Source: a virus
Strand: one strand, 5' to 3'
Length of the DNA stretch: 20,090 nt
Virus record (IMG/VR): IMGVR_UViG_3300050033_000550
Coordinates: 1-20,090 of that record
Of the stretch, positions 1,716-18,759 are shown piece by piece (the stretch's first letter is position 1; each line of letters starts with the position of its first letter). The translations under genes were made by a program, and so were the position numbers. The notes beneath the pieces were generated by a model. The model saw only the letters and a list, made by a program, of their open reading frames with translations, searched no databases and had not been told where the DNA came from.

Positions 1716-1991
1716 CTATTTTTCCGACTCACTGATCAGCTCGAGCAGGATTGCCTTTGTGGCGTTAGCCGGGATATCCACGCCTTTATCTGTCAATACG
1801 GCGATAAGTTCTTTGTTCGTCAGATCCGCGTAGTCTTTTTTCTGATCGGCTGCTTCCTCGACAATCAGCATCGGCTCGGCTTTTAAAATCGCCAGTGTTT
1901 TAGTATCCACGTCAAACACTTGGGCAGTTTCCTTGAATTTCATTCCGGCCCGGCGAAATGTTTTGGGTATCGATCTCACTGATATTTTCAT
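1716..1991 (-). CDS. Mu gp35-like protein: FluMu N-terminal domain plus C-terminal HeH/SAP-like domain
   Basis: This 91-residue protein follows the capsid gene, exactly where gp35 sits in Mu. Residues 1-45 contain FRRAGMKF and LAILKAEPMLIVEE, which match the pattern I know for the N-terminal domain of Mu/FluMu gp35 proteins (an F-R-R-x-G core, then LxAEPMLVVE). Residues 58-88 (LTNKELIAVLTDKGVDIPAN and the following KAILLELI) fit a HeH/SAP-type helix-extension-helix domain, often found at the end of small phage head proteins. The start has a strong AGGAGG (2000-2005) 8 nt upstream. A structured element (2008-2094) lies directly before that site. The role is likely a minor head or head-completion protein; the exact function is unknown. 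Confidence 0.75.
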   Translation of the reverse strand: MKISVRSIPKTFRRAGMKFKETAQVFDVDTKTLAILKAEPMLIVEEAADQKKDYADLTNKELIAVLTDKGVDIPANATKAILLELISESEK

Positions 1992-2007
1992 TGTTTATTC
2001 CTCCTCA

Positions 2008-2094
2008 ATGAAACTCAAATTTTAGAAACATAGTGCGCTAAAATTTGTTAGTTGAATTGATCCCGCAACTCCGGGCACTTCCGGAGTTGTCGGG
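2008..2094 (-). promoter_or_regulatory. Structured 5'-leader element, copy A (before gp35-like gene, after capsid gene)
   Basis: Two hairpins are visible. The GC-rich one pairs CCCG (2062-2065) with CGGG (2091-2094) and CAACTCCGG (2066-2074) with CCGGAGTTG (2081-2089), leaving one bulged base at 2090. The AT-rich one pairs AAATTTTAG (2017-2025) perfectly with CTAAAATTT (2038-2046) around a 12-nt loop, read on the minus strand as CGCACTATGTTT. The gp35-like gene's AGGAGG begins 12 nt beyond the second hairpin. Copies B (3003-3082) and C (7924-8000) share the layout, loop and linker, with compensating stem changes. Confidence 0.75.
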
Positions 2095-2109
2095 ATAAGC
2101 ACCTTTATT

Positions 2110-2991
2110 CTACGCCAGCCAGGGCACGTTGACGGTTTTCACCGTGTTGTACCAGATGTTGCTGGCTCCACCTGCCTGATTGGCCGCGTCAATGGCGGTC
2201 TTGGCTGCGGATTCCAGCGACGGGCCATGCACGAGATGTGTAGGGATAACACCCAGGGGTGTTACACCGTCTTCTCGTTTGAACGACATCATGGCGGCTC
2301 TGGCAGCAGCGTAGCTGGCGACATTAAGTGTTTGCTTGCTGCCGTAGCACAGCGGCCACAGGCCGAAGCCGACGTTTTTGCGGTCATCGACACCGTACAT
2401 GAATTTTTTCCGCATGAAGTTTTCCTGATCATCCGGCTTATCCAATGCCACGAATTCGGGCGTTTTCCGAATCTGAAGGATGAGGGGTTTGATCGGACGG
2501 CGCAGATCCATAAGGAACCACGGCTCGCCGGAACCACCATCGCTATTGCTGACCTGACTCTCTCCCCAGGGATGGTCTGTGTCGCAGAAATACTGGCCGT
2601 CAAAGCATTTAGCAGTGAATGCCTGCTTCAGCAGAGCAAAGACGATAATGTCGGGATGCTCCTTGGCCGCCTGAGCGAGCCCCTGAATCATCGGATTATA
2701 GAGCCCAAGCAGATCGTCCGCAATATCATCACGATCCACACCTACGGTTGCTTCGTAGGATTTATTTTTAATTGTGTAATCGTATGCCGACAGATCCTTG
2801 ATCACTCTGTCGCCGAGCCATTCCCGCATGCCCGGAAAATCGCCGAGCCAGGGGTAACCCTGTTCGCGTGTGGTAGACGGCGCACGCATGGCCACCAGAT
2901 CGCACATGCTGGGCGCGCCATCAAATGCCTGGTTGAAAATAACTTTGAATGTCTTATATGCAGCCTGTAAGGTTGCCTGATTGATAATCAT
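2110..2991 (-). CDS. T: Mu-like major capsid protein (gpT family)
   Basis: This 293-residue protein is the main building block of the phage head. Features typical of the Mu gpT family are GYPWLGDFPGMREWLGDRVI near residue 45, followed by YTIKNKSYEATVGVDRDDI and later FCDTDHPWGESQVSNS and MRKKFMYGVDDRKNVGFGLW. Its length is close to Mu gpT (about 305). I chose ATG 2991-2989 because AGGAGG (2998-3003) lies 6 nt before it; a longer frame from a TTG at 3015 would translate through the ribosome binding site. The gene follows the protease/scaffold and decoration genes and is flanked on both sides by related structured elements (copies B and A), which suggests post-transcriptional control or mRNA processing around capsid expression. 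Confidence 0.9.
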   Translation of the reverse strand: MIINQATLQAAYKTFKVIFNQAFDGAPSMCDLVAMRAPSTTREQGYPWLGDFPGMREWLGDRVIKDLSAYDYTIKNKSYEATVGVDRDDIADDLLGLYNPMIQGLAQAAKEHPDIIVFALLKQAFTAKCFDGQYFCDTDHPWGESQVSNSDGGSGEPWFLMDLRRPIKPLILQIRKTPEFVALDKPDDQENFMRKKFMYGVDDRKNVGFGLWPLCYGSKQTLNVASYAAARAAMMSFKREDGVTPLGVIPTHLVHGPSLESAAKTAIDAANQAGGASNIWYNTVKTVNVPWLA

Positions 2992-3002
2992 TTTGTTCCT
3001 CC

Positions 3003-3082
3003 TAATGAGACCCAAGTTTTAGAAGCGCAGAGCGCTGAAACTTGATGGTCGAATTATCCCGTCCGCCGTGAGGCGGATCGGG
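3003..3082 (-). promoter_or_regulatory. Structured 5'-leader element, copy B (immediately before capsid gene)
   Basis: The GC-rich hairpin pairs CCCGTCCGCC (3058-3067) with GGCGGA plus CGGG (3072-3077, 3079-3082), leaving bulged base 3078 just inside CGGG, the same place as in copy A. The AT-rich hairpin pairs AAGTTTTAG (3014-3022) with CTGAAACTT (3035-3043), 8 of 9 positions, around a 12-nt loop read on the minus strand as CGCTCTGCGCTT. The third pair is G-C where copy A has A-T, a compensating change. The capsid gene's AGGAGG begins 11 nt past the hairpin. Confidence 0.75.
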
Positions 3083-3110
3083 GTTGGTTGTTAATATCCC
3101 TTTACGTCGT

Positions 3111-5177: not shown

Positions 5178-5182
5178 CTTTA

Positions 5183-5217
5183 AAATCCCCCTCAATCCCC
5201 CTTTATGAAAGGGGGAG
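5183..5217. repeat. CCCCCTTT..AAAGGGGG dispersed palindromic element, copy 1
   Basis: The sequence has CCCCCTTT then ATG then AAAGGGGG (8-bp stem, 3-nt loop), preceded by a second CCCCCTCAAT block. It fills the gap between the gpG-like gene and the protease gene, and its GAGGGGG block serves as the protease ribosome binding site. A nearly identical copy lies at 10065-10098. Confidence 0.7.
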
Positions 5218-5670: not shown

Positions 5671-5702
5671 TTCTAATCCTCTAACCTTCTAATCATCTAA
5701 CC
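5671..5702. repeat. 16-bp tandem duplication at portal/gpG junction
   Basis: Two units, TTCTAATCCTCTAACC and TTCTAATCATCTAACC, differ at one base. On the minus strand they carry the portal stop TGA (5695-5693) and the GAGGA ribosome binding site of the next gene. This looks like a GTTAGA-type simple repeat. Confidence 0.8.
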
Positions 5703-7816
5703 CTCTTAATAACTATGCCGTGGCAATGCGGATGATAGGGCGGCAGTACGCCTCTAGCCACGAGAGTTTCTGCATTGCCTGCTGCGGGCGTGATGGTTTT
5801 CATTTCGGCTGAGTATTCGTCCGGCGACATGCCCGCCTGTTTGGTCATGGTGTTATATGCGGTGGCAACGCTGATGACCCTGCCGTTCATCTCCCTGCAA
5901 AAATCGCATTCCATCGTCGGCTCATAAACTTCCAGTTCGGTAATTCCGGCTTCATGGAGCTGGGATGTCGCCGCCCAGTTCTGCGTCCTGGTGACAGATG
6001 TGTCAATTATCCGGCTCACCTGATAATCTTCCAGATCGGAAAGTTTCTGGCTGAAGAGATCCCGGAACGCCTGATAGTTTTCCGGCAGTGCGCGTTTGAA
6101 TAACCCGGCTCCTTCCTGGAGGTACCGCTCACTCAAAAATGATTTGACTGTTTCAATCGCGTCGGGGTTCTGGATAAATTTGGAAACATAAAAGCTATCC
6201 ACTTTGGAAAGGAAATTCATGGCGCGCAGATCCGGCCCGCCGAATTCAACCAGCGCCGCAGGATCGGGACTGCGGAATGCTTTGTATATGTCCGCAACTG
6301 CATTTTTAATAACCGGCCTGTCGACAACGCTGAAGGCCGCGCCTAATATTCCCTGCACAGCGGCAATAAATTCCGCCTCCGCAGGAGGAATGCTCTGCTT
6401 GCGCAACCAGGCCTCAACTTCATCGAGCGCGCCCGTGCGCGCATTTTGCAGGGACGGTTTGAGCGCATTCATATAAGAGGCAACCCAGTCGGGCGCATCG
6501 CCTGCGGCTTTGTTGGCAATAACCGACGTGCCTTTGTTGGCATTCAAGTCAAAAGGCGTGGGAGACGGCTGCGGTGCTCTTAGCGTCTCTTCACCCTTTT
6601 CCGGCAGGGGAATTCCGAAACGATCATGAATATGGGATACGGGGATGTCGTTAAACCCGGCATCTTTAACCAGGACGCCATAGGTGCGGGCAATCTTTTC
6701 CAGGTCTTCTCCGCCTTCAAAATGCAGCTTGAATATGGGCACGCCCTTGTCCGGGCCGTAATTGAAGATCACCCACGGTTTCAGCAATTTAAATTTTGCG
6801 GTCTTCATGGCTGATTTGGCATCGGACTCCAGCAGGTCCTGCCGGACTTTAGTTGCCTGATTTTCTCCGCCCAGTTTTCCCGGTGTACTTTCGGACGATC
6901 CGGTGTGCCCAAGGACGCTCTTGCTCATACCCTTTTCGCAATATTCCGCAAAGTTCCCAAATGTTGCAGTGTCGCCACGCTGTTTGGCTTCCAAGATTTC
7001 GATGATCATATTATCCGAGATCACGGCGGCGGCATCGACGCCCAGATTGAAGACGGCTTTTTTGAGCGCATCCTTTTCTTCCTGGCCAGCGCCGGGCTTA
7101 TACTTACCCACGCGCATGGGGACGGAAAACAATTCATTGAAAATGAGCCAGTCTTTGATATCGTAATTTTTAAACAGGTACATATAAGAGCAAGGCCGCA
7201 GCAATCCACCTCTGGCCGTAGCCCCGGAGCGGGCACGGTATTTGTGAACGATAAATTTATTGGGGATTAATTCCTCTCCCCATACCGGATTGTCAATGGT
7301 AAGTAGGCGCGGATCTTCCAGAAGGATCGTCGGCGTGTTAAAAGTAAAGCGCCGCTGATGCACCCATTTAATTTCTTTGGCCCATATTTGCCCTTCGGAC
7401 ATGTCCCACATTATTTCCTGCACGGCGAAGCCCTTGCCTACAGCATCAAGCATATCGAGGAGCGCATCCTCAAAATTTTCGATATACTCGATCATCTCGG
7501 TCGCGGCGGCGGCGATATTCTTATCTTCTTCGGAATCGGAGGCCGGAAGGATTTCCCAATCCAAACCGGTTACGGCTAGTTTTCTGGTTTGCAGTACGCC
7601 GCCCAGGTGCAGATCCTTTTCTTCCATTTCCTCGAACAACTCTGCCTGGCTCGTTACGTCTCCCTGATCCGCCTCTTTAAAGATGGTCGCCAGGCGTTGA
7701 GGAGTGAGCCCCTGAGACGGGTATGAACCGTACCGATCCCGAATGGTTTGAACCGCCACTTCCTCCAAAACCGGCTTATTGGATTTGATTTCCCGATTAT
7801 ACTGGTCGAACAGCAT
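5693..7816 (-). CDS. Portal protein (DUF935, Mu gp29-like) fused to MuF head morphogenesis domain (gp30-like)
   Basis: The protein has 707 residues; the Mu portal is about 510. Residues 1 to about 430 carry the DUF935 portal pattern: GGVLQTRKLAVTGLDWEI, GKGFAVQEIMWDM, RRFTFN, IPNKFIVHKYRARSG, GGLLRPCSYMYLFKNYDIKD and LGHTGSSES. A Pro-rich linker (APQPSPTPFD) follows. Residues from about 450 to 707 end in a MuF-type domain: SRIIDTSVTRTQNWA, ECDFCREMNG (C637, C640) and LPPYHPHCHG (H695, C698), the Cys/His set typical of phage Mu protein F-like domains. The portal forms the DNA gate of the head; MuF proteins act in head morphogenesis and are packaged in some phages. Mu encodes these as two genes, so this is a fusion. 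The start ATG 7816 has a modest GGGGCGGA ribosome binding site. Confidence 0.88.
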   Translation of the reverse strand: MLFDQYNREIKSNKPVLEEVAVQTIRDRYGSYPSQGLTPQRLATIFKEADQGDVTSQAELFEEMEEKDLHLGGVLQTRKLAVTGLDWEILPASDSEEDKNIAAAATEMIEYIENFEDALLDMLDAVGKGFAVQEIMWDMSEGQIWAKEIKWVHQRRFTFNTPTILLEDPRLLTIDNPVWGEELIPNKFIVHKYRARSGATARGGLLRPCSYMYLFKNYDIKDWLIFNELFSVPMRVGKYKPGAGQEEKDALKKAVFNLGVDAAAVISDNMIIEILEAKQRGDTATFGNFAEYCEKGMSKSVLGHTGSSESTPGKLGGENQATKVRQDLLESDAKSAMKTAKFKLLKPWVIFNYGPDKGVPIFKLHFEGGEDLEKIARTYGVLVKDAGFNDIPVSHIHDRFGIPLPEKGEETLRAPQPSPTPFDLNANKGTSVIANKAAGDAPDWVASYMNALKPSLQNARTGALDEVEAWLRKQSIPPAEAEFIAAVQGILGAAFSVVDRPVIKNAVADIYKAFRSPDPAALVEFGGPDLRAMNFLSKVDSFYVSKFIQNPDAIETVKSFLSERYLQEGAGLFKRALPENYQAFRDLFSQKLSDLEDYQVSRIIDTSVTRTQNWAATSQLHEAGITELEVYEPTMECDFCREMNGRVISVATAYNTMTKQAGMSPDEYSAEMKTITPAAGNAETLVARGVLPPYHPHCHGIVIKRVR

Positions 7817-7923: not shown

Positions 7924-8000
7924 AATGAGCCTGAATTTTCCGAAACGTAGTGCGCGGAAAATCCTAGAGCGAATTATCCCCGAAGCGAAGCGGAGCGGGG
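7924..8000 (-). promoter_or_regulatory. Structured element, copy C (terminase-portal gap, no ribosome binding site attached)
   Basis: The AT-rich hairpin pairs GAATTTTCCG (7933-7942) with CGGAAAATCC (7955-7964); one position is a G-U pair in minus-strand RNA. The loop reads CGCACTACGTTT, one base different from copy A. The two pairs next to the closing G-C are C-G where copy A has T-A and A-T, both compensated. The linker reads GGGATAATTC. The GC-rich arm is CCCCG (7978-7982) with CGGGG (7996-8000) around 13 nt. No ribosome binding site follows the hairpin, and the portal ATG is about 107 nt further on. Confidence 0.7.
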
Positions 8001-10056: not shown

Positions 10057-10064
10057 CCCGCTTT

Positions 10065-10098
10065 AAATCCCCCTCAATCCCCCTTTACAAAGGGGGAG
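10065..10098. repeat. CCCCCTTT..AAAGGGGG dispersed palindromic element, copy 2
   Basis: This is nearly identical to 5183-5217: AAATCCCCCTCAATCCCCC, then TTT, ACA and AAAGGGGGAG. It fills the gap between the small coiled-coil gene and the small terminase gene. There is no T run after the stem on the minus strand. Confidence 0.7.
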
Positions 10099-14632: not shown

Positions 14633-14658
14633 GAACAAGGGGTTGCAACCCCTTGTTC
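14633..14658. repeat. 26-bp perfect palindrome upstream of gam-like gene
   Basis: GAACAAGGGG, TTGCAA and CCCCTTGTTC form a perfect self-complementary 26-mer. It ends 17 nt before the gam-like start and lies next to a GTCATTCCGG-type repeat. It could be an operator, a leader hairpin or a dispersed host repeat. Confidence 0.75.
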
Positions 14659-14663
14659 TGTTC

Positions 14664-14690
14664 CTGGATTCCGGCCTGCGCCGGAATGAC
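14664..14690. repeat. GTCATTCCGGC-type REP element, copy 1
   Basis: The minus strand reads GTCATTCCGGCGCAGGCCGG then AATCCAG, with the usual GGATTCCGGC/GCCGGAAT stem. Translation yields VIPAQAGIQ, a known mark of this bacterial repeat family. Relatives lie at 16863-16889 and 18733-18759. The flank 14708-14732 (TTCACGTTTCCCGC, TTCACGAGATACGC) is another dispersed repeat. Confidence 0.8.
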
Positions 14691-14763
14691 AGTCTGTTTT
14701 TTTCGCTTCACGTTTCCCGCTTCACGAGATACGCCAAAAGCCTCATCACAGAGGGTTTTAAGA

Positions 14764-16851: not shown

Positions 16852-16862
16852 TTCTTCACCTC

Positions 16863-16889
16863 CTGGATTCCGGCCTTCGCCGGAATGAC
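16863..16889. repeat. GTCATTCCGGC-type REP element, copy 2
   Basis: The minus strand reads GTCATTCCGGCGAAGGCCGG then AATCCAG. It lies between the transposase and zinc-ribbon genes, and its end runs into the AGGAGGTG ribosome binding site of the latter. Confidence 0.8.
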
Positions 16890-16915
16890 ACTTTTTACTT
16901 TTCGCTCTTCACTTT

Positions 16916-18732: not shown

Positions 18733-18759
18733 GTCATACCGACGCAGGCCGGTATCCAG
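18733..18759. repeat. GTCATACCGACGCAGG-type REP element, opposite orientation
   Basis: On the plus strand it reads GTCATACCGACGCAGGCCGG then TATCCAG, a divergent REP relative in opposite orientation to copies 14664-14690 and 16863-16889. It occupies most of the 43-nt gap before the transposase start. Confidence 0.7.

Follow-up and report, generated by a model that had tools for sequence, protein, structure and literature searches.

A short repeat of two hairpins, present in three copies in the window (the whole stretch of 20,090 bases analysed here, a fragment of a Mu-like phage from an IMG/VR virus record), belongs to a family that is also dispersed between the genes of bacterial chromosomes and that stands, in phages, mainly in the sense orientation at gene starts. 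In this placement it resembles a portable leader with which phages begin the translation of their late genes. The element is probably a REP/BOX-like dispersed repeat that serves phages as a start-associated leader. Short palindromic repeats are commonly regarded as chromosomal parasites or as terminator-like debris. The contrast between the random orientation of the host copies and the sense bias of the phage copies makes a conversion of host repeats into regulatory parts by phages directly testable, and if this reading is true, unrelated phage genes have one leader in common, so that their joint control would be possible.

Structure of the element in the window

All genes of the window lie on the minus strand, as do the three copies, A, B and C, with their hairpins and Shine-Dalgarno sequences. 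The gene of the Mu-like major head protein gpT (2110..2991; PF10124, E 3.5e-111) is located between copies B and A. Copy A is preceded by gpT and followed downstream by a small gene for a FluMu_N-domain protein (1716..1991; PF17891, E 1.5e-6), and the gene behind copy C encodes a Mu-like portal (5693..7816; PF06074, E 1.6e-91). A Mu-like protease/scaffold was also identified in the window.

The three copies were found where the preliminary description had placed them, and they share an exact common pattern of 52 nt with fixed spacing, AATTC-N15-GCGCNCTNNGNNTC-N13-TCATT. When the pattern was searched with <=3 mismatches, A, B and C were the only three matches in the window, and the shuffles gave a mean of 0.00 (n = 100). 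These 52 nt form hairpin 2, the core of the element, which was matched with 0 mismatches at 2007..2058 in copy A (model R1, 73.3 bits; 19/19 pairs Watson-Crick), at 3004..3055 in copy B (70.6 bits) and at 7924..7975 in copy C (69.0 bits). Upstream of it lies hairpin 1, of about 25-37 nt, which has the form AUCCC...GGGAU with an inner stem that varies freely. In the predicted folds, its GC-rich stem occupies 2060..2096 in copy A, directly behind the gpT stop region, 3057..3083 in copy B and 7976..8000 in copy C, and its distance from the upstream stop is 14-30 nt in copies A and B. The bulged A noted earlier at the matching place in the GC stems of A and B is present in the predicted fold of both; the stem of copy C is without it, and by inspection it occurs in several other phage copies.

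Hairpin 2 consists of an outer AAU/AUU helix, a constant UC/UC internal loop, a stem of 4 bp, a 2-nt bulge, a stem of 10 bp and a 12-nt apical loop, which gives the layout 5'-AAU-UC-GNNC-NN-(10 bp)-loop of 12-(10 bp)-GNNC-UC-AUU. The preliminary description had treated the AATTC stretch as a linker and CATTA/CATTG as a separate box. The order of parts that it gave is common to the copies, but folding and comparison indicate that the linker and the box pair together as the two arms of one long stem. The paired changes in the stem are real and are borne out over 44 sequences, in which 91% of the cells are paired and both sides have changed in 16/19 pairs; the covariation score is 0.431, compared with 0.02-0.13 when the partners were slid (maximum 0.128). 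The outermost pairs co-vary too, with AAT/ATT, AGT/ACT and AGC/GCT all found. The 12-nt loop carries the motif RC-UNY-GY, in which R-Y and C-G form a second small helix closing UNY (G-C 20, A-U 17). In phage copies that were known before this pattern was searched, GATCAATTC on the 5' side is accompanied by TCATTGA on the 3' side, which indicates that the helix is longer in those copies.

A sister subfamily has the same GGGATAATTC...TCATTA frame and a different inner stem (AATTCCACCAGCGCTTCAAACTGCGC...GTGTCATT); its modules were seen at L042:5401-5458, L335:9785-9836 and L337:4126-4178 and on L046 (reverse, 2070). Looser searches, with GCGCNCT...CTCATTA and GGGATNAATTC..., returned hits that were for the most part due to chance.

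The Shine-Dalgarno sequence GAGGAGG (2000..2006) stands directly 3' of copy A, 8 nt from the ATG of the FluMu_N gene, and AGGAGG (2998..3003) stands directly 3' of copy B, ahead of the gpT ATG. The ribosome binding site had been described as beginning 11-12 nt past the hairpin; in both copies, it starts immediately after the outer stem. Copy C is without a nearby ribosome site, and the portal start is 107 nt away. Copy A precedes the FluMu_N gene, and a position before head genes, as originally proposed, thus fits copy B alone closely. The single-strand folds of A and B are far more stable than those of shuffles (z −5.7 and −4.5, respectively), whereas that of C is not (z −1.2). No intrinsic terminator was called at A, B or C, and hairpin 1 has no U run behind it.

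Over the 52 positions, A and C are each 48/52 identical to a host copy, whereas they are 35/52 identical to each other. Since both are nearer to host copies than to each other, the phage and the chromosomes share subfamilies. Copy C, with its distance from the portal start and no ribosome site, is a host-like copy. Copy B is 50/52 identical to a copy in another phage (contig L043), placed at the ribosome site of that phage's major head gene.

Placement in phages and in bacterial chromosomes

Pattern searches and searches with a covariance model, as suggested in the preliminary description, found copies in other virus contigs and in bacterial genomes. On the virus contigs, which are fragmentary, in part related and not independent, and annotated with a simple gene caller, 39 distinct copies comprise 31 sense and 8 antisense to the downstream gene (p = 2.9e-4). 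The numbers are 27 sense and 8 antisense when four copies known only from the GATC/TCATTGA pattern are left out; one later phage scan required AGGAGG, and no copy depends solely on that scan. A start codon follows 28/31 sense copies at a distance of 0 to 16 nt. The ATG directly abuts the copy in 17 of the 31 (class I), and in 16 of these 17 the 3' arm of the 4-bp stem contains a GGAG/AGGA/AAGG/GAGG core approximately 6-7 nt from the ATG, compared with 18 of 97 host copies without an ATG behind them (p = 2.4e-9). In eleven more sense copies, including A and B, the start codon is 11-16 nt past the stem, and the interval mostly contains GAGGAGG, AGGAGG or a weaker stretch of purines.

Phage contigs carry several copies each, at gene borders, and the genes behind them encode two major head proteins, a head-tail adaptor, a tail chaperone, a baseplate hub and wedge, and unknown proteins. 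The earlier view of a recurring structure with compensating changes, located at translation starts, is borne out, whereas its link to head genes and capsid dosage is not, as further copies precede adaptor, tail chaperone, baseplate and unknown genes. A search with blastn against sequenced phages and plasmids gave no matches of value. The idea that the phage copies are mere tolerated insertions was dropped after the phage set had been enlarged.

Another dispersed palindrome, TCCCCCTTTNNTAAAGGGGGATTGAGGGGGATTT(T)AAA, occurs on the minus strand of the window at 5180-5214 and 10062-10096. Both here and on several other phage contigs (L045, L362, L312), it stands a few nt before an ATG, with GAGGGGGA as the likely Shine-Dalgarno sequence, and is also found in the host loci L084 and L142.

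The gap behind gpT, which copy A occupies in the window, was compared with other gaps in relatives. Gaps of >35 nt make up 15/22 of those behind gpT and 54/209 of the others, and the hairpins in the gaps behind gpT are stronger (median z −2.8 vs −1.0, p = 2.6e-4), with unrelated sequences; in front of gpT, no hairpin enrichment was found (p = 0.31). From these longer gaps and stronger hairpins, it seems that the gpT message calls for a hairpin at its 3' end, a place which the window phage fills with its own repeat. Strong hairpins behind the major head gene, kept in position and not in sequence, were observed in the Mu-like relatives L007-L009, L014, L018, L025, L032-L034 and L237-L240.

In bacteria, exact matches to the pattern were found in 2 of 395 genomes of one phylum, to which a MAG titled 'Deltaproteobacteria bacterium' belongs. 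Covariance model R1 was applied to 80 genomes from the order of one of these two and found 73 copies in G372, 66 in G338, 35 in G165 and 9 in G068; eleven further genomes have 1-3 copies, and 65 have none. The loci around the copies in G372, G338 and G165 include DNA segments that are 85-98% identical, and these three genomes are congeneric. No copy was found in the class of G001 (29 genomes). The preliminary description had named identical host copies unlinked to head genes as an observation against its proposal; similar copies with no link to phage head genes do occur throughout bacterial genomes and speak in part against it, although they are not identical.

The host copies lie on both strands, with 23 sense and 25 antisense between co-directional genes as called by our own hexamer script, a simple caller. 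They adjoin tRNA genes, stop codons and terminators, and some are in tandem or nested. In some host copies (L115:14281-14352; L195, reverse), the apical loop contains CTATAGTGACCTTTAGG-like insertions, which suggests nesting of yet another palindrome.

One orthologous site measures 12 nt in G479 and 160 nt in G338, although the ends are not exact, and the additional ~150 nt in G338 consist of a copy, the remnant of another copy and a CGTC-type palindrome. The G479 site, the single clean case, appears to be an empty site. No target-site duplication was seen at it, and the AAT/ATT ends of the element belong to its hairpin. Searches for a Y1 transposase (PF01797) gave no match in G372, with its 73 copies, and four in G165, none of which is flanked by copies, so that no mobilising enzyme was found in these two genomes.

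Mu-like prophages whose gpT is 62-82% identical to that of the window occur in the same bacterial order as the repeat, which ties the phage and the repeat to one host group. The element is absent from the five prophage genomes with the closest gpT. It is also absent from the corresponding junctions in phages with 75-84% identical gpT, where other palindromes are found.

Level of the pairing and competing explanations

A pairing maintained on account of the transcript would be expected to tolerate G·U and not A·C. The numbers of G·U and A·C cells are 58 and 61 in the host copies, 14 and 13 in the host copies that are sense to both neighbours, and 21 and 30 in the phage sense copies. The tRNAs of the same genus gave 48 and 0, a control that leans to G·U because ARAGORN favours paired stems. 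With no excess of G·U over A·C, the covariation points to a palindrome maintained as DNA, as in REP-like elements, and it is unsafe to take the covariation as proof of selection on RNA, as had been done. The pairing may be preserved in the DNA alone, whereas the placement in phages argues for a use in translation. Both can hold, if a DNA-borne repeat persists at the places where it functions as a leader.

In the following outline, the existence of the family, its structure and distribution, the orientation bias and the placement of the Shine-Dalgarno sequences are established by the results above, whereas the effect of the element on translation and on mRNA ends, and its means of spread, are what we infer. 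The three copies belong to one family of short, dispersed two-hairpin intergenic repeats, which multiplies in the chromosomes of one genus within one order and is common to these chromosomes and to the phages infecting that order. The phages keep copies mainly where the 3' end of the repeat coincides with a gene start. In class I, the stem is directly followed by the ATG and carries a Shine-Dalgarno core in its 4-bp part, on the 3' side; in class II, to which A and B belong, the outer stem runs into an external GAGGAGG or AGGAGG. Copies A and B are most likely intercistronic leaders, in which hairpin 1 would close off the upstream cistron, in copy A at the end of the gpT message, while the base of hairpin 2 would present the following gene's ribosome site.

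Several observations count against the leader reading: G·U is not above A·C, copy C lies away from a start, the element is missing from the prophage genomes whose gpT is closest, and no mobilising enzyme was found in G372 or G165. The equality of G·U and A·C would also be expected of a purely selfish or neutral REP/MITE-like palindrome, in which the pairing would serve as a transposition substrate (a DNA hairpin) or result from quasi-palindrome correction and the positions at starts would be harmless insertions. The unbiased orientation in hosts, the insertions beside stop codons, tRNAs and terminators, and the nested copies together with the apparent empty site agree with such a palindrome. 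We nevertheless regard it as unlikely, because it does not account for the sense bias and exact ATG abutment in phages or for the Shine-Dalgarno core in 16/17 abutting phage copies against 18/97 host copies, and because a constant UC/UC mismatch and a constant bulge are unexpected if correction perfects palindromes. A more far-reaching possibility is that the dispersed chromosomal palindrome family provides phages with a portable translation-initiation module. This would be a two-hairpin leader whose Shine-Dalgarno sequence is locked in a conserved arm of the stem, with the ATG exactly at its base, reused before many late genes and possibly switched jointly by one factor recognising the conserved loop and the UC/UC motif. 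This is a tentative possibility, which we hold to be less probable than the dispersed repeat used as a leader.

Two further explanations concern the phage copies. In the first, that of the preliminary description, a cis-regulatory RNA specific to phages would set the amount of capsid relative to minor head protein, which agrees with copy B at the gpT ribosome site and with the copy, 50/52 identical to it, at the major head gene of L043. This explanation is very improbable, since copies also precede tail, baseplate and adaptor genes, dozens are chromosomal, and phages with 75-84% identical gpT carry other palindromes at those junctions. The near identity of the same two copies before different major head genes, together with the several copies per contig at gene borders, could also be understood if the copies were boundary sequences promoting module exchange by recombination, in which a gene and its leader travel jointly. 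Since copies in one genome differ by up to 17/52 bases and no tested case showed one leader with genes swapped at both ends, we give this explanation hardly any weight, the least among those considered here. The use of a dispersed repeat as a start-associated leader remains the best explanation.

Comparison with known systems

The window has no match to any described RNA family in Rfam 15. For the Mu-gpT-DE RNA motif (RF03012), which is linked by name with Mu-like gpT, no match was obtained in the window at the gathering score or at E<=10; in one scan, the control genomes were also negative and its sensitivity is thus unproven, and another scan was performed at E<=10. An integron attC site was rejected by inspection, as the RYYYAAC/GTTRRRY boxes of attC are absent from the consensus of the element. 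A search of the literature on dispersed palindromes in Desulfobacterota yielded nothing specific, and we found no description of the combination of a dispersed host repeat with an association to phage gene starts.

The element resembles REP elements in that these are short palindromes present in many copies, intergenic, in both orientations, patchy among relatives, and mosaic or nested (PMC3733652, PMC2817692). It differs from them in its greater length (two hairpins, ~80-90 nt), in its constant internal loop and bulge, and in its association with starts in phages. Unlike GTAG REPs, it ends in AATTC...TCATT without a terminal unpaired GTAG tag (consensus and flanks, 44-99 copies), and no RAYT (Y1) transposase gene flanked by the repeat was found in G372 or G165. 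The CGTC REP super-family has a CGTC tag, a stem of 8-9 bp and a CCA tail (PMC3733652), whereas the stem and ends of the present element differ and no CGTC tag is found. The general features of untagged REP-like dispersed repeats are present, namely tens of copies, intergenic location, both strands and a patchy distribution.

Palindromes of the form TGTC-ATTCCGGC...GCCGGAAT-CCA were observed in the window at 14653-14707, 16852-16906 and 18733-18759, and one of them is directly followed by GGAGG. They fit the CGTC REP super-family as a TGTC variant with a CCA tail (PMC3733652).

The BOX, RUP and SPRITE repeats of pneumococcus are, like the present element, modular intergenic hairpin repeats with nested families; they have been proposed to affect co-transcribed genes and are enriched between convergent genes (PMC3049150). 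Their lineage is unrelated, and they are not described as start-associated in phages (PMC3049150). The SAS/ESAS repeats of cluster K mycobacteriophages are similar in their many copies, nearly uniform sense orientation, location at translation starts, Shine-Dalgarno sequence within the repeat, and inverted repeat upstream (PMC3203893). SAS is a 13-bp sequence, GGGATAGGAGCCC, which does not occur in the host genome and is limited to non-structural genes (PMC3203893). In contrast, the element described here has a different sequence, carries the Shine-Dalgarno sequence in a stem arm, has chromosomal copies and precedes structural genes.
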